Assembly: GCA_030637775.1 (NCBI GenBank)
Contig: DAOWFY010000168.1
Location: 1-6,241, forward strand
Origin: DAOVGU01 sp030637775 [NCBI: bacterium]
GTDB taxonomy: Bacteria > Ratteibacteria > UBA8468
DNA: 6,241 bases
Reading direction: 5' to 3'
Shown one piece after another: positions 1-6,241 of the stretch (positions are counted from its first letter, which is position 1; every line of letters begins with the position of its first letter). A model generated the notes under the pieces. That model was not told where the DNA came from, did not search any database, and saw nothing but the letters and a program-made list of their open reading frames with translations. A program made the translations under genes and the position numbers.

Positions 1-761
1 CACGGGAAGCAAAAGGAGAAATTATCCTTTTCACCGATGCCGACTGTGTCGCTGATGCCGACTGGATAAAGGAGATGGTAAGACCATTTGCCAATCCCGA
101 GGTTATTGGTGTAAAAGGAGCATACAAAAACAGAGAGGAACGGCTAATCGCTCGTCTGGCTCAGGTAGAATTCGAAGAAAGATACCGACTCTTAGAAAAG
201 AATAGAGAGGGGATAGATATGGTTGATACTTACTCTGGAGGTTTTCGACGAGACATCTTCCTTAAGATGGGAGGTTTTGATACCTCCTTTTCGGTAGCGA
301 ATAATGAAGACACAGAATTTTCTTATCGGCTTTTTTTTCAGAATTATAAGTTAGTCTTTAATCGCAGAGCGATTGTCTACCATTTAGGTCATCCCAAAAC
401 CCTCATTCAGTATTTAAGATTAAAATTTGGTCGGGGTTACTGGAGGATGGTTGTTTATAAACGTTTTCCCAAAAAAATGGGTAAGGATTCCTATACTCCG
501 CAAATAATGAAATTGCAGGTACTGCTCTTTTATCTTTTTATCTTAAGCGGCTTCTCAATAACAATTGTTCCGGCAGCAGGTTATTTTCTGCTTTTTACGG
601 CGGTGCTCTTCTTGACCAGCACAATTCCATTTTTTCTTCTATCCCTTAAAGAAGGACTGTTGCTGGGACTGGCCTCACCCCTATTTCTAACAGCAAGAGC
701 CGCTTCCTTGGGGGCAGGGGCAATTATCGGTCTATTTCATCGCCGGAGAAAGATTTTATGA
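1..761 (+). CDS. Family 2 glycosyltransferase with C-terminal membrane region (5' partial)
   Basis: This is the 3' part of a glycosyltransferase that would transfer a sugar from a nucleotide-sugar donor at the inner face of the cytoplasmic membrane. The reading frame is open from base 3, upstream of the first in-frame ATG at 75. Those upstream codons give the GT-A metal-binding signature (ILFTDADC, visible residues 8-15), so the true start lies outside the window and ATG 75 is internal. Further on come SGGF (78-81), the acceptor-side acidic pair in NNEDTEF (100-106), and a YHLGHP segment, all in family-2 order. From about residue 170 to the end are two to three hydrophobic stretches (roughly 170-192, 194-213 and 217-244) and then a basic tail, HRRRK. 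The TGA stop overlaps the start of the next gene. What is seen supports the family firmly. The donor and acceptor sugars are unknown. Its neighbour suggests capsule, exopolysaccharide or O-antigen synthesis. Confidence 0.9.
   Translation, partial: REAKGEIILFTDADCVADADWIKEMVRPFANPEVIGVKGAYKNREERLIARLAQVEFEERYRLLEKNREGIDMVDTYSGGFRRDIFLKMGGFDTSFSVANNEDTEFSYRLFFQNYKLVFNRRAIVYHLGHPKTLIQYLRLKFGRGYWRMVVYKRFPKKMGKDSYTPQIMKLQVLLFYLFILSGFSITIVPAAGYFLLFTAVLFLTSTIPFFLLSLKEGLLLGLASPLFLTARAASLGAGAIIGLFHRRRKIL
745..752 (+). promoter_or_regulatory. Shine-Dalgarno site of the sugar transferase
   Basis: GGAGAAAG lies inside the last codons of the glycosyltransferase, with GGAG ending 9 bases before the ATG at 758. 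It supports that start and shows that this genome uses canonical ribosome binding sites, in contrast to the ligase gene at 3926. Confidence 0.7.
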
Positions 762-1792
762 ATCGAAAACAGAGCTTTTTTTCATGGAGAGCAACTCCGA
801 AATTACAAACTGTATGCCAAATAGCTGTGGATTATATTTTAGTCTTTTTTATTTTCTCTGCTGCTATTAAATTCTCTTCCGCCCTGCATTTAAACAGTCT
901 ATCTGCTTTAACATTGGTCATCTTCTGGTTGGTTGGTCTTTATAAAAAGCAGAGAAGCATTATGAATATATTGGAAATGCAAAAGCTCTGCCGGGGAGTC
1001 CTTTTTGTTTTCTTTATTTTAATGCTATCTTCCCTTCTAAAATTTGATTTCCTCAAACCTCTTTCGGTTGTTAAGACCTGTATTAGCATTTTTCTCGTCA
1101 TTGGTATGGAGCGCTTCCTATTTTTTAAACTGGAGCAGTATTTTCTTTTAAGAGGGGGGAAAAAGAAGATGACTATTTATGGAAACTTGGCTTCCTATTC
1201 TTCTCCTCACGGTCACCAGAACTTCTTTACCAAAGCACTTAAGAGAATAGCCGACATTGTCTTCTCCGCACTGCTTTTAGTTATTTCTTCACCGTTATTC
1301 ATAATTTTGGCTATTTTGATCAAAAGAGATTCTCCGGGAGCTGTTTTTTTCAGGCAGGAAAGAGTGGGCAAGAACGGAAGGCTCTTTTCTATGTTTAAGT
1401 TCAGGACGATGTATGCCGAGGCGAATAAGTATGATTATCATCCCCGAGGGAGAGATGACGCAAGGATAACGAAGATCGGAAGAATGCTCAGAAAAACAAG
1501 TCTTGATGAACTTCCTCAATTGATGAATGTTATTACCGGTGAGATGAGTTTGGTTGGACCCAGACCGGAGATGCCCTTTATCGTTAAGGAATACAGCCAG
1601 ATACAAAAACAAAGGCTAACTGTGAAACCAGGCCTTACCGGACTCTGGCAGATAAGCGCAGATAGAAGCAAACCCATCCATGAAAATATGGAATATGACC
1701 TTTATTACGTAAACAACCACTCTCCTCTGCTCGATTTAGCTATTATTCTGAGAACAGTGATTTCGGTGATTAGGGGAATCGGCGCCCACTAA
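758..1792 (+). CDS. Polyprenyl-phosphate sugar-1-phosphate transferase (WbaP/PglC family), short form
   Basis: This 344-residue membrane enzyme is expected to transfer a sugar-1-phosphate from a UDP-sugar to undecaprenyl phosphate, starting a repeat unit of a surface glycan. The N-terminus has about four hydrophobic segments (roughly 21-40, 47-62, 78-95, 103-123). The catalytic domain begins near 160 with a re-entrant-type hydrophobic helix (164-188). It contains QERVGKNG (200-207), FKFRTM (213-218), the Asp-Glu catalytic pair in DELPQL (D250/E251), [11 protein letters not shown] (261-271), PGLTGLWQ (291-298) and a YDLYY segment (313-317). In PglC the aspartate of this pair carries the phosphosugar. 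The usual long WbaP-like proteins have a Rossmann-like domain between the membrane and catalytic parts. Here only about 35-40 residues remain, including a possible first strand (KKKMTIYGN, 135-143). ATGA overlap with the upstream gene indicates translational coupling. The last 23 bp overlap cysN on the other strand. Family is certain; sugar specificity is not. Confidence 0.93.
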
Positions 1793-3026
1793 TTATGGTA
1801 GTTATAATACCGCCGGCACAAATATTATTCCCTTTTACCAAAACAAACCTTCCCAATTCGGCCAGATCATTAAACGTTTTAACAGCAATTGGCCTTTTAG
1901 TTTTAATCATAACCTCCCCCACTTCAAGATTTCTCAATATGCCGGCATCCTTTTCAATTACCTGAAGGGAGGACGAATTAATCCTCTTTTTAATTTCGGT
2001 AACTCGACAACTAATTTCCTGTGTAGTGCATCTTAAAGTGATCCTTTCTTTCTTGCCAAAATCCTCTTTTAGCATCCAGAAGAGATTGGCTCCAAACGTA
2101 TCGGTTAAGAAAGGCTCTTTACCCGGTTCGCAGAGGACATCTCCCCGATCTAAAAATACCGGTTCCTGGGTTGTAATTCCAATGCTTTCGCCGCTATCGC
2201 CTCTATCGATATTTTCTTCACAGAATTTTTCAATAGATTTAACTCTTGTCATTTGGCCACTCGGCAAAATCTTAATCTCCTGACCTTGCCTGATACTACC
2301 GGCCTCAATCCTTCCTACCGTTATTCTTTTGCCGTTGATCCTGTAGACATCCTGCACCGGAAATATTAAGGGTTTGTTCTCTGCAGGCAATCTATTCTTC
2401 AAAGAGTCAAGGCTTTCCAATACGGTTGGTCCTTTATGCCAGGGGATATTTTTCGATTTTCCGGCTACATTATCACCTTTCGTTGCCGAAATCGGTATAT
2501 AAAAATATGGTGTAATATCTATTGTACGAAGAAATTTTTCCACCTCTTGTTTAACCCTACGGAATCTCTTCTCGCTAAAATTTACTAAATCCATTTTATT
2601 TAGAATAACAACTACCTGATAAAGACCCAGCATCGCCAATATATAGGCATGGCGCTTTGTCTGTTCGGCAACTCCCTGATTGACATCAACAATTAGAAGA
2701 CCGGCTTCGGCTTGCGAAGCCCCGGTGATCATATTCTTGACAAACTCTATATGGCCGGGGGCATCGATTATTACATATTCCCTTTTGGGGCTTTTAAAGA
2801 AGGTCTGGGTTGTATCGATGGTTACCCCCTGCTCCCTTTCTTCTTGTAGGTGGTCCATCAAGAAAGCAAATTCAAGCTTTCTTCCCACTCCTTTTGAGGC
2901 TTTCTCTACCTCCTCTATTTTATCCGGAGGCAGAGAATCGGTATCAAAAAGAAGCCTCCCGATAAGGGTTGACTTACCATGGTCAACATGGCCGACGATG
3001 ACAAATTTCAGAGATTCCTTTTCCAT
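1770..3026 (-). CDS. cysN: Sulfate adenylyltransferase subunit 1 (CysN), EF1A-like GTPase
   Basis: This is the regulatory GTPase subunit of ATP sulfurylase, which couples GTP hydrolysis to APS formation by CysD. All GTPase motifs are present: GHVDHGKST (12-20), the switch I region EQGVTID (65-71), DAPGH (88-92), NKMD (143-146) and SATKGDN (180-186). Two beta-barrel domains follow (about 218-300 and 305-410), ending in [10 protein letters not shown]...AGGII, which is typical of CysN. At 418 residues it is shorter than E. coli CysN (about 475) and has no fused CysC kinase. DAPGH and [10 protein letters not shown] read like elongation factor 1A, where E. coli CysN has DTPGH and RNMATGAS. The assignment rests on the adjacent cysD, only 8 bp upstream. 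Its ribosome binding site is weak (AAAG), so translation may depend on cysD. Its stop codon lies inside the convergent sugar transferase gene, and no terminator is evident. Confidence 0.9.
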
Positions 3027-3034
3027 ATCTTTAA

Positions 3035-3835
3035 TTACATATATCCCAGTGCCCTCAATTTCTGCATCATATAGGCAGATTCTTTATCCTGGGCGCGGCC
3101 ACTTCTTTCCGAGACCTTAGATATTTTTAACTCCTCAACTATTTTATCGATGGTGTCGGCATCTGAATCCACCGGATTACAGCAGGTTTCACATCCGATA
3201 CTGCGGTATCTTTTGCCATTTTTAGCAAAATACAAAGATACAATGGGGATATTTTCTCTTTTTATGTATTGCCATACATTTAACTCTGTCCATCCTAATA
3301 AAGGGTGAATACGTAGGTGCTCTTCATCCTTTGCTTTGGTCTTGTACTGATCCCAGAGTTCTGGTGGCTGATTTTTGTAGTCCCACTCAAAATCTTCATC
3401 CCTTGGAGAAAAGATTCTCTCTTTAGCTCTGATGCCATGTTCATCCCTTCTGATGGCAAGGTATAAGGCTCGGAAACCATATTTTGCAATGGCCTTCTTA
3501 AGGTTATTTGTTTTTAATTCTGTGCAACATTTAAACCTACCTTTCTCTGGGCTCATTCCCTTATTCATTGCCTCTTTGTTTTTGGCGACAATTAGATTAA
3601 GGTTCCATTCCTTGGCATATTTGCCCCTGAACTCATATATCTCCTTAAATTTATATCCGGTATCCAGATGCATAATCGGAAAAGGGATTTTGCCATAAAA
3701 TGCCTTCCTGATAAGCCAGAGAGCCGTTGTACTATCCTTACCGATCGACCAGAGCATCGCGACATTTTTAAATTGCCGATATGCCTCTCTGATTATAAAA
3801 ATGGTTTGATTCTCCAATTTTGTAATATGGTCCAT
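3035..3835 (-). CDS. cysD: Sulfate adenylyltransferase subunit 2 (CysD) with APS-reductase-like cysteines
   Basis: This is the catalytic ATP-pyrophosphatase (PAPS reductase/ATP sulfurylase superfamily) subunit, which makes APS from ATP and sulfate. The PP-loop SIGKDS is at 30-35, HLDTGYKF at 56-63, RRDE at 129-132, RAKERIFS at 136-143, [10 protein letters not shown] at 182-191 and SERSGR at 242-247. The order and the ERSGR...RALGYM tail match CysD rather than CysH. Residue 1 ([10 protein letters not shown]) corresponds to the E. coli CysD start, which supports ATG 3835. At 266 residues it lacks the roughly 30-residue stretch that E. coli CysD (about 302) has before its RTLGC motif. The only five cysteines are C103, C104, C215, C218 and C219, in the CC...CxxC arrangement that binds a 4Fe-4S cluster in APS reductases. 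There is no C-terminal catalytic cysteine, so reductase activity is unlikely. It is first gene of a cysDN pair, transcribed leftward from the divergent spacer. Confidence 0.9.
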
Positions 3836-3907: not shown

Positions 3908-3927
3908 TAAAAATTATTAAAAATTAT
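3908..3927 (+). repeat. Perfect 10-bp tandem repeat before the ligase start codon
   Basis: TAAAAATTAT is present twice head to tail (3908-3917 and 3918-3927). The second copy runs into the first two bases of the ATG at 3926. It fills the whole stretch between the -10 hexamer and the start codon, where a Shine-Dalgarno sequence would normally lie, and contains no purine-rich GGAG-like core. Confidence 0.75.
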
Positions 3928-5431
3928 GGAAAGTTTACCGGTGACCCTTAATGAAATATTGAAGAGGCAGGCAGATACCTCTCCCCAGAAGCTCGCCATC
4001 ATCTATAAGGAGAGAAAAATTAGCTATCGAGAATTGGATGAAATTACTAACAGATTGGCTAATAGTTTAGTTGGCCTTGGCATCAGGAAGGGTGACCGAG
4101 TGGGGATAATGCTGCCCAGGATTCCGGAGTTGGTTATTGCTTACTTGGGTCTGAGCAAGTGTGGCGCCATAAGCTTTCCATTAAGTAATGAAATTTCGTC
4201 GGCAGAAATAGAAAACATCCTATCTGAGACTCAGCCTTTCGCCTTAATTGTACACAGCACATTTCTGAGGCTGGTCAGAAATTTCGCTGCAGGAAATTAT
4301 CTGATTGTTCTTGGTGGGAAAGCGAAAAAAGGCAACTATTACTTTGAGGAACTGCTGAAAGAAGGAAAGAGCCAAGCCCCTTTAGTCTCGGTCTCTCCCG
4401 AGGATACCTTCTACCTTAATTATACTTCCGGTATAACCGGGAGTCCTAAAGGAGCAATCACCACACATTCTAACATTTTTTATAATACGCTTGCTTCCGT
4501 GGATGCGTTGGGGCTGAGAGAGGATGACATTCATCTATGCATGTTTGCTTCCTATAGTCATCCTCACGAAATCTTTGCCCGAGCATTCTACTTAGGAGGA
4601 ATCATTGTTCTCGCAGACAGCATTTATCCCAAGTCCCTCGCCCGGGAAATCTTACGTAATCGTGTGACCGTCATGATGGCTCTACCACCCTTTTATGAGA
4701 TGTTACTGGAGGCCGCCGAGATCAGGCCATTTGATCTTAGCTCTTTGAGAATAGCTGAAAGTGGAGGGATGCATACCCAAGAGGATTTGAAGCAACGGTT
4801 TAGGAGAAAGTTCGGTATTCCTATCCTTGCCGTCTGGGGTAGTACGGAAACAACCGGAATTGCCATCGCCAATTCTCCCAACAATAAACAAAAGGAAAAT
4901 TCGGTGGGTAAGGTCTGTAAACATTATCGGGTGAAGGTTCTCGATGAAGACAGAAAGGAAGTGCCTACCGGAAAGGTGGGAGAACTTGTTTTTGAGGGAC
5001 CGGCTATTGTCAGTGGCTATTATCAAAAGCCTGAGGAGGTTAAACAACTACTTCCTGATGGGTGCTACTTTAGCGGTGATATTGGAAGAAGGGATGAAGA
5101 AGGCTATTTTTTCCTTCGGGGCAGGAAATCAGGAATGCTGAAGGTAGGAGGCTGGAAGGTCTATCCCTTAGAAGTAGAAGTTGTTTTAAATTCCCATCCT
5201 CACATCCAGGAGGCGGTGGTAGTAGGGTTGAAAGATAGGAAGAGGGGTGAGGTTCCTAAAACCCTTATAGTTTTAAAGCCGGGAAGGAATTTAACTATAA
5301 GAGCGATAATCGATTACTGTAGAAAACGTTTGGCTCGTTATAAAGTTCCGAAGGCAATAGAATTTGCCGATGCTCTCCCTAAATTAGCCAGTGGAAAGAT
5401 CGATCGGAAAGCTCTTGATGATGTCTCTTAA
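3926..5431 (+). CDS. Class I adenylate-forming enzyme (acyl-CoA synthetase/AMP-dependent ligase)
   Basis: This 501-residue soluble enzyme is expected to activate a carboxylic acid with ATP to an acyl adenylate and then pass it to CoA or a carrier protein. The core motifs are in order: P-loop YTSGITGSPKG (166-176), WGSTETTG (304-311), FSGDIG (382-387), the hinge region GRKSGMLKVGGWKVYP (399-414), and PKLASGKIDR (485-494) with the catalytic lysine K491. The length is normal for the family and both the large N-terminal and small C-terminal domains are complete. Two positions differ from the usual consensus: Ile170 in the normally SGTTG loop, and Gly403 where Asp or Glu is common. The start at 3926 places LNEILKRQADTSPQKLAI where family members usually begin, but no Shine-Dalgarno precedes it. 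It shares its last 11-14 bp with a dehydrogenase gene, so both probably serve one pathway. The acid substrate cannot be read from sequence. Confidence 0.92.
   Translation: MESLPVTLNEILKRQADTSPQKLAIIYKERKISYRELDEITNRLANSLVGLGIRKGDRVGIMLPRIPELVIAYLGLSKCGAISFPLSNEISSAEIENILSETQPFALIVHSTFLRLVRNFAAGNYLIVLGGKAKKGNYYFEELLKEGKSQAPLVSVSPEDTFYLNYTSGITGSPKGAITTHSNIFYNTLASVDALGLREDDIHLCMFASYSHPHEIFARAFYLGGIIVLADSIYPKSLAREILRNRVTVMMALPPFYEMLLEAAEIRPFDLSSLRIAESGGMHTQEDLKQRFRRKFGIPILAVWGSTETTGIAIANSPNNKQKENSVGKVCKHYRVKVLDEDRKEVPTGKVGELVFEGPAIVSGYYQKPEEVKQLLPDGCYFSGDIGRRDEEGYFFLRGRKSGMLKVGGWKVYPLEVEVVLNSHPHIQEAVVVGLKDRKRGEVPKTLIVLKPGRNLTIRAIIDYCRKRLARYKVPKAIEFADALPKLASGKIDRKALDDVS
5406..5411 (+). promoter_or_regulatory. 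Shine-Dalgarno site of the dehydrogenase
   Basis: GGAAAG inside the end of the ligase gene lies 6 bases before ATG 5418 and 9 bases before ATG 5421. It supports a start at one of these two adjacent codons but does not choose between them. Confidence 0.55.
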
Positions 5432-6241
5432 AAGCAAAGCATTGTTGGTAAAGGCAGTGGATGACCCAATACCGGGAATCCCTCGTCCCGGTCCCTATCA
5501 ACGCTATCGCTATCCTCGATTAGAAATTGTGACCCGGAGGATGAAGGTTGTTCAGCCAGGCCATGTAAGATTGAAGGTCATTTTAGCCGGAGTCTGTGGA
5601 ACGGACATCCATCTTTTGGAAAGCAATAAAAGTACGGGCTACGTGAACTGTTCTGCCCCAGCTTCCATTCCCCGAAAAGGACGGATCTTAGGGCATGAAT
5701 GCGTAGGTCAAATTATTGAGGTTGGTGAGGCCGTCACTGGGCTGCAGCCGGGAGATATCGTGGCTTGCGAAAGTATCATCAGTTGTGGCGTCTGTATCCC
5801 ATGCCGACAGGGCGCCTTCAACCAATGTTCCCGGGCACGACTTTTAGGAATGGAGGAAGACGGCATCTTTGCCACCTATGCCGATCTTCCACAACGGATC
5901 TGCCATCCGATTGAGGGCCTGGAGCAAAAGCCACAGGGATTGGTACAGGCTGCCTGTCTTGAACCAGCCGCAGTAGCCTATGTTGCCTTTGAGTATGCGC
6001 GGGTGCAGAGCGCTGAACATGTCCTCATCTTTGGCGGGGGGCCCATCGGGCTCTTTTTGGCAATGCTGGCTAAATGCATCTTTGGAAGTTTGTGGGTTGA
6101 ACTCATTGAGCCGTTGAAATTACGAAGAGAACTGGCTAACCGGTGGGCAGACCAGGTCTTCACCCCTCGGCAATTCTGGGCAAGAAAGACCGCCGCCCTG
6201 CCCTACTATGATGCTGTCTTCGAAGCCAGTGGCGAACTTGA
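5418..6241 (+). CDS. Zinc-dependent medium-chain dehydrogenase (3' partial)
   Basis: The frame is open from ATG 5418 to the right edge (274 residues seen, stop outside). It encodes an NAD(P)-dependent dehydrogenase of the alcohol/polyol dehydrogenase superfamily. The catalytic zinc site is C60 (GVCGTDIH), H93/E94 (LGHE) and E182 (LEPA). The structural zinc cysteines are C123, C126, C129 and C137. The Rossmann fold begins with the glycine-rich FGGGPIG (205-211), and an acidic E230 sits at the end of the second strand, which would suit NAD more than NADP. The first catalytic cysteine lies about 20 residues later than usual, and the C60-H93 interval is about 8-10 residues longer than in common members, so this is a distinct subfamily I do not recognise. 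It overlaps the ligase by 14 bp (or 11 bp from ATG 5421), indicating coupled translation. The gene is clearly GC-richer than those to its left. Substrate unknown. Confidence 0.9.
   Translation, partial: MMSLKSKALLVKAVDDPIPGIPRPGPYQRYRYPRLEIVTRRMKVVQPGHVRLKVILAGVCGTDIHLLESNKSTGYVNCSAPASIPRKGRILGHECVGQIIEVGEAVTGLQPGDIVACESIISCGVCIPCRQGAFNQCSRARLLGMEEDGIFATYADLPQRICHPIEGLEQKPQGLVQAACLEPAAVAYVAFEYARVQSAEHVLIFGGGPIGLFLAMLAKCIFGSLWVELIEPLKLRRELANRWADQVFTPRQFWARKTAALPYYDAVFEASGEL

Follow-up and report, generated by a model that had tools for sequence, protein, structure and literature searches.

An ATP sulfurylase CysD subunit with a predicted iron-sulfur site matching that of APS reductase

The catalytic CysD subunits of ATP sulfurylase from Pseudomonas syringae (PDB 1zun) and Escherichia coli (NP_417232.1) share their fold, PP-loop, CysN partner and ER.GR tail with the protein examined here. 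To our knowledge, ATP sulfurylase CysDN is a textbook enzyme that has been described without a metal cluster. E. coli CysD differs from the protein in carrying His-Thr in place of C103-C104, Leu in place of C218 and 29 extra residues between positions 203 and 209. Assimilatory [4Fe-4S] APS reductases (CysH; 2goy and 7lhr) resemble it in fold, in a CC plus CxxC cysteine arrangement and in a lysine five residues past the first cysteine, but they possess a catalytic ECGxH motif and form their own clade at 100/100. With respect to gene context, the sulfated capsule locus of Vibrio sp. KMM 8419 likewise has CysDN within a polysaccharide locus. In the accessible part of that report (PMC11641403), CysC and sulfotransferases make and use PAPS, whereas the genome studied here yielded no APS kinase match. 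The same part of the report treats PAPS genes together with sulfotransferases as the hallmark of sulfated polysaccharide loci, and the loci described below contrast with this pattern.

The window, meaning the whole stretch of DNA that was analysed, is one entire contig of 6241 bases from a 1.4 Mb genome that is 83.5% complete and divided into 177 contigs. Its features are collected in Table 1. Polysaccharide genes lie beside cysDN in the window and, as judged by eye, also in the sister genome G001 and in locus L010. CysN accompanies CysD in 65 of 75 loci, a count that includes the window's own locus and one duplicate.

Table 1. Genes and predicted functional sites of the window
Feature	Position	Strand	Basis or remark
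Family 2-type glycosyltransferase, 5' end off contig	3..761	+	Pfam PF13632/PF00535
Bacterial sugar transferase, convergent with cysN	758..1792	+	Pfam PF02397
cysN, 418 aa, GTPase subunit without APS-kinase domain	1770..3026	-	TIGR02034, 351.0 versus cut-off 336.1 bits; 8 nt after cysD
cysD-like gene, 266 aa, ATP sulfurylase catalytic subunit	3035..3835	-	ORF, ATG start, NF003587
C215 and C218 codons (predicted ligands 3 and 4) plus that of C219 (not fully conserved)	3179..3193	-	Face GCEPC of 2goy
K108 codon, lysine 5 residues past first predicted cluster cysteine	3512..3514	-	Invariant; faces 7lhr lysine
C103-C104 codons, for predicted cluster ligands 1 and 2	3524..3529	-	Invariant 68/68; face CC of 7lhr
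PP-loop SIGKDS codons, residues 30-35	3731..3748	-	S30, G32, K33, D34, S35 invariant in 68-row alignment
AMP-forming acyl ligase, divergent from cysD	3926-5431	+	Exosortase-associated TIGR03098, 251 bits, below cut-off 592
Zinc dehydrogenase, divergent from cysD	5391-6239	+	

The window protein exceeds the cut-off of the broad CysD model NF003587/PRK05253 (352.8 versus 195 bits) and retains the S-x-G-K-D-S PP-loop of CysD as SIGKDS. Its top match in the PDB is 1zun, both by sequence and by Foldseek. The stricter CysD model TIGR02039 gives 274.1 bits, below its cut-off of 396.6, and the protein is therefore classed as a CysD variant, not as the E. coli type. As expected, the match to this model is split into two stretches because 29 residues are missing from the window protein. 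Scores against the APS reductase model TIGR02055 (62.1 bits, cut-off 235.3) and against PRK02090 (72.7 bits, cut-off 154) fall below threshold. A preliminary description of this DNA had reported that the C-terminal ECGLH-type catalytic cysteine of reductases is absent and that the partner gene is cysN. Both points hold: ECGxH occurs in none of the 67 CysD rows and in all 17 CysH rows compared, and cysN starts 8 nt downstream of cysD. The missing motif and the adjacent cysN therefore identify the window protein as ATP sulfurylase.

Only five cysteines (C103, C104, C215, C218 and C219) are counted in the translation, just as the preliminary description had listed them. Its by-eye comparison with E. 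coli CysD is reproduced by alignment. The segment FKCCTELKT faces AKHTDIMKT, such that C103-C104 stand for His-Thr, and RSIGCETC faces RTLGCWPL, such that C218 stands for Leu. The lysine proposed to complete the APS reductase pattern also falls into place: K108, five residues past C103, faces the lysine of HECCRLRK in the APS reductase chain 7lhr. Residues 140-141 and 145 of this chain, as counted here, correspond to C103-C104 and K108, and C215 and C218 align with GCEPC of the APS reductase 2goy. We take the 7lhr and 2goy residues that face the window cysteines to be cluster-binding residues. The preliminary description had further linked this pattern to the loss of a CysD segment of about 30 residues. 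The segment is indeed absent, with 7 residues (203-209) where E. coli CysD has 36, but the link fails. CysDs with 34-42 residues in the 203-209 interval also carry all four cysteines, and the 29-residue deletion was rejected as part of the Fe-S pattern because such long proteins keep both the segment and the set.

Conservation of the cysteines was followed in a 68-row alignment (A1) of the window protein and 67 bacterial or archaeal loci, drawn from the best 80 of 377 relatives found in genome contigs. Five cut or masked loci were left out (L059, L063, L069, L073 and L074), as were eight loci that lack the set and are the least similar of the best 80, at 42-50% identity (L070-L072, L075, L076 and L078-L080). 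C103, C104, C215 and C218 are kept in 68 of 68 rows, and K108 is likewise invariant. Loss of these cysteines in close homologues, which had been named beforehand as evidence against a cluster, was thus not found. Pairwise identity in the alignment has a median of 71% and a minimum of 52%, and 66 positions are invariant. The position of C219 holds cysteine in 64 rows, valine in 2 and threonine in 2; because of these four exceptions, C219 was rejected as a needed ligand. Apart from this position, the next-best cysteine column reaches 14 of 68 rows. Because the rows are this diverged and no other cysteine column but that of C219 approaches the four, their invariance exceeds chance. The only cysteines that never change are the four with counterparts among the APS reductase ligands.

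Among the best 80 of 377 relatives, the CC pair is found in 72, and all four cysteines are present in 68 of these 72. In L063, L069, L073 and L074 the CC pair is present and the second half is cut or masked; L059, outside the alignment, has all four. Carriers among these 80 include Planctomycetota, Omnitrophota, WOR-3, Sumerlaeota, Nitrospirota and Acidobacteria, and also Diapherotrites, Aenigmatarchaeota, Thermoplasmata, Methanofastidiosum and Methanoperedens. G001, which belongs to the same genus as the window genome, encodes a CysD that is 93% identical. No match to window CysD was obtained in G002 and G003, two genomes of the window's family that are 77% and 83% complete. The distribution of the gene in this family is patchy.

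It is probable that the window protein is the CysD of a CysDN ATP sulfurylase and that C103, C104, C215 and C218 ligate one iron-sulfur cluster, most likely [4Fe-4S], at the site of the CysH cluster. We infer the bound cluster, its type and its role from the homology of the ligands. Together with the GTPase CysN, the subunit would convert ATP and sulfate to APS and PPi. The [4Fe-4S] cluster most likely sits where APS reductase holds its own and, with K108, would shape the sulfate/APS end of the active site. It most likely performs no redox chemistry on the substrate, because the catalytic ECGxH cysteine of the reductase is absent.

A predicted model of window CysD (pLDDT 81, with residues 133-157 and 159-169 below pLDDT 50) matches CysD 1zun with Z 20.5 (rmsd 1.6, 170 residues aligned) and APS reductase 2goy with Z 20.4 (rmsd 2.2, 196 residues aligned). 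Values for 4bwv (Z 21.5) and 2oq2 (Z 20.6) are similar, and all four are tied within about 1 unit. The latter two are presumably enzymes without a cluster, and since they score equally well the fold fits the proposed site but cannot discriminate a cluster from none. DndC and the tRNA thiolases TtuA/NcsA were also considered as relatives and rejected; they belong to different families, and TtuA and NcsA rank lower among the structure matches. These proteins are other PP-loop enzymes with Fe-S, according to the accessible sections of PMC10853773.

Two trees, of 63 and 84 rows, were built from hand-chosen rather than sampled rows after the motif columns had been removed. The larger retains 84 of 93 rows following removal of 9 duplicates; the truncated L106_asD and L168_H are excluded from both. 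The tree program warns of long branches for E. coli CysH, L195, L103 and L199. CysD and CysH split at 100/100 in both trees, and the window protein lies in a clade of 26 CysD rows, all with four cysteines, whose support is 90/97 (63 rows) and 90/88 (84 rows). The preliminary description had offered two readings. Homology lends good support to the first, a subunit of ATP sulfurylase that carries an Fe-S cluster (invariant matching ligands, adjacent CysN, missing ECGxH, score above the NF003587 cut-off). The second, an intermediate of CysD and CysH, finds no support as an activity, since the two separate at 100/100.

Among the 67 distinct CysD rows of the 84-row tree, the two halves of the site tend to occur jointly: both CC and CxxC are present in 51, neither is complete in 13 and one only is present in 3; the rows being hand-chosen, 51 of 67 is no measure of prevalence. 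Three branches have the set. The first holds the short form, including window CysD. The second combines short and ~300-aa forms, several of which adjoin a CysH in which the same cysteines occur along with ECGxH (L104, L108, L109). The third consists of long forms, placed with E. coli CysD at 100/100 (L091, L089, L183-L191). The set is missing from the E. coli type (HT or YT, CxxL), from three alphaproteobacterial CysDs (RV, ExxI) and from L192-L195. CysDs with the set, here termed FeS-type, that are probably assimilatory (L104, L108, L109, L158, L088, L092) share the four cysteines, an ERSGR/ERAGR tail and a place in the CysD clade with the window protein. They differ by their ~300-aa length, extra residues before the CC pair and, for L104, L108, L109 and L092, a neighbouring CysH. 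Long FeS-type CysDs (the third branch) also share the four cysteines and have CysN in the same stretch, but they keep the ~30-residue segment and group with the E. coli protein.

Several individual loci depart from these patterns. The alphaproteobacterial CysDs of L070-L072, with RV and ExxI for the four cysteines, adjoin CysN-CysC fusions and CysH-like genes. L196 and L197 (CysDs of 268 aa) have CC but CxxI, that is, three of four ligands, and may represent a three-cysteine site or a decaying one. In the long CysD of L141, CSMC replaces CC and GCQLC is present, which may be a rearranged ligand set. One genome, G080, encodes three CysDs: a short FeS-type (L026), a ~300-aa FeS-type beside CysH (L104) and a long form (L141). 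The CysH-type proteins L150, L151, L153-L156 and L161 contain a CysD-like GKDS PP-loop and an ER[AS]GR stretch in addition to CC, CxxC and ECGxH.

With gains and losses at equal costs, the 84-row tree requires 5 changes if the set is at the root and 6 if it is not. When losses cost twice as much as gains, a root without the set is cheaper (7 versus 9). Correlated loss can be assessed with no more than 3-4 independent pairs (p 0.25). The set is found in each large CysD branch and in CysH; at equal costs it is therefore ancestral and was lost in E. coli-type CysD. The site common to CysD and CysH looks like a retained ancestral site. Less certain is the full scenario, in which it was inherited from the CysD/CysH common ancestor and E. 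coli-type CysD lost it. The window protein is a genuine variant of a known enzyme, CysD, with an apparently undescribed, predicted Fe-S site that is most simply an ancestral feature. No description of Fe-S cysteines in CysD, or of a cysD-cysN-PF01663 operon (see below), was found in the open-access subset of the literature that was searched. The accessible portions of PMC6286981, PMC10322725, PMC10853773, PMC7356697, PMC2275785, PMC3578206 and PMC11641403 do not mention the cysteine set in CysD. The available part of the first, which presents a CysD tree that includes ANME sequences, is silent on an Fe-S site in the protein.

FeS-type cysDN genes are often followed by a third gene. Where cysN is in view (62 loci), the following ORF of at least 80 aa on the same strand encodes a PF01663 protein in 39, and it overlaps cysN by 4 nt in 12 of those 39. 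PF01663 (type I phosphodiesterase/nucleotide pyrophosphatase, or NPP) was assigned by Pfam on two representatives. The gene is absent directly after cysN in the other 23 of 62 loci, some of which are contig ends. NPP-like matches occur in 54 of 72 loci with FeS-type CysD, some being weak matches to long proteins, and in none of the 8 loci whose CysD is of the E. coli or RV type. Ten further short loci (2.1-3.9 kb) have no NPP-like match. Other recurrent neighbours are a TauE-type permease, present in 15 loci, and a DUF2061 protein, present in 7, with one representative of each scanned.

The PF01663 proteins of most bacteria are ~415-460 aa long (L024 has one of 707 aa), and a form of ~240 aa is found mainly in archaea. 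The ~240-aa type is found in L036-L040, L042, L043, L046, L050, L053 and L059, all archaeal except L046 (Hydrothermota), and seems to be a core of minimal size in which the six metal-ligand positions are all retained. In a 34-row alignment of 33 of the 39 NPP proteins and the window genome's own, D13, D200, H204, D250, H251 and H389 are invariant in 34 of 34; we assume that these are the metal ligands of the AlkP superfamily. A further alignment (A3) comprises 21 rows. For the L003 protein, a predicted structure of pLDDT 92 fits phosphonoacetate hydrolase 1ei6 at Z 27.9 and Xac NPP 2gsn at Z 27.1. By its predicted fold and the six metal-ligand residues, the L003 partner is a member of the NPP/AlkP superfamily.

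In the window's genus, cysN is followed by the convergent sugar transferase, and the NPP gene sits on another contig. The single NPP protein of the window genome is 42% identical to the L010 protein, and the neighbours of its gene look, by eye, like Wzz, DegT, Gfo/Idh, WecB and GalU. Among four one-contig chromosomes, only G079 has the 420-450 aa NPP type, and the others have longer, weaker relatives. Matches to the 452-aa NPP query in G064 and G110 are pieces (30-43% identity) of 683-727 aa frames, and those in G070 are pieces of 574-696 aa frames.

The fate of APS in these organisms was approached through searches for enzymes that use it. APS kinase was sought in 52 genomes and PF01507 in 53, covering 50 of the 80 loci plus further genomes (G001 and G061 are the same genome, counted twice). 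No match to APS kinase PF01583 was found in the window genome (83.5% complete) or in G001 (93% complete), and none in 29 of the 52 genomes with FeS-type CysD. Some match exists in the other 23, and it covers at least 149 of 152 positions in 11. In 21 of the 29 kinase-less genomes there is no PF01507 match above 100 bits other than CysD. Six have an ECGxH-bearing CysH (G072, G074, G085, G095, G096, G106), and two (G090, G092) have long multidomain PF01507 proteins. G001 shows only one weak further PF01507 match (21.5 bits). Sulfotransferases PF13469 and PF00685 were searched in 29 genomes (27 loci plus further genomes); neither was found in the window genome or G001, and each family matches in 1 of 29. 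Dissimilatory APS reductase PF12139 matches in 1 of 32 genomes (29 loci plus further genomes), and its absence from the other 31 has no positive control since the profile also matches none of 14 control genomes.

Many of these genomes are therefore without a known APS user, and the adjacent NPP-fold enzyme becomes the best candidate, as a transferase or a hydrolase. APS may be used directly, without PAPS, in genomes that lack both the kinase and a further PF01507 protein. In the window organism it probably serves the modification of polysaccharides (glycans) rather than cysteine synthesis. We tentatively suggest, as a possible and still doubtful general model, a PAPS-free sulfation route in bacteria and archaea. 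FeS-type CysDN and the NPP-fold PF01663 metalloenzyme, whose genes adjoin and at some loci are joined by one for a TauE-type or DUF2061 membrane protein, would together turn sulfate into APS and modify surface glycans or lipids with APS as the direct donor, replacing APS kinase and sulfotransferase. Under this model, CysD would originally have been of the Fe-S type, and the E. coli type would have arisen from it by loss of the cluster.

FeS-type CysDN might instead serve cysteine synthesis, with the missing APS kinase and CysH being gaps in incomplete genomes such as the window's, which is spread over many contigs. At least 15 of 53 genomes do have an ECGxH-bearing CysH (G039, G065, G071, G072, G074, G076, G080, G085, G086, G095, G096, G097, G101, G106, G107), and the 11 of 52 with a nearly full-length APS kinase also agree with this explanation. 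It is nevertheless unlikely. The one-contig chromosomes CP070770, CP070807, CP070728 and CP070715 (1.8-3.4 Mb) have no non-CysD PF01507 match above 100 bits, and their only APS kinase match is a 41-position fragment in one of them. Sister genome G001, at 93% completeness, has no APS kinase and only the weak PF01507 match noted above, and polysaccharide genes are among the neighbours of cysDN in the window.

Other roles for the four cysteines must be weighed against a cluster that shapes the active site. They might hold a [4Fe-4S] redox or oxygen switch, such that APS is made only while the cluster is intact, that is, under anoxia. Many carriers among the best 80 relatives are MAGs of typically anoxic lineages, including methane-cycling archaea, which we take to be anaerobes, and the set is missing from E. 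coli CysD. However, it is also found in CysDs beside CysH, which are probably assimilatory, and in Acidobacteria MAGs of unknown oxygen tolerance, and the sequence carries no sign of regulation; a switch is accordingly improbable. Quite improbable is a site for zinc or another metal, or a set of disulfides, in place of an Fe-S cluster. Four cysteines could coordinate zinc, and the fifth, C219, is nearly invariant (64/68). Adjacent CC ligands are a signature of APS reductase, however, and the match to these enzymes runs position by position and includes the lysine and the S[IL]GCxPC context. That the window protein is itself an APS reductase or a bifunctional enzyme, as its fold and cysteine set might suggest, can be dismissed, given that it lacks ECGxH, scores below both reductase cut-offs, is placed outside CysH at 100/100 and adjoins cysN, and that in L104, L106, L108 and L109 a CC-bearing CysD is adjacent to a separate ECGxH-bearing CysH.

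If much of the CysD family has an iron-sulfur site, the APS reductase cluster did not originate together with reduction chemistry and would predate the split of the APS-making from the APS-reducing enzyme. The role of that cluster would then be testable in an enzyme without redox chemistry on its substrate. In genomes lacking APS kinase, the genes linked to FeS-type cysDN suggest a use of APS that has gone unrecognised.
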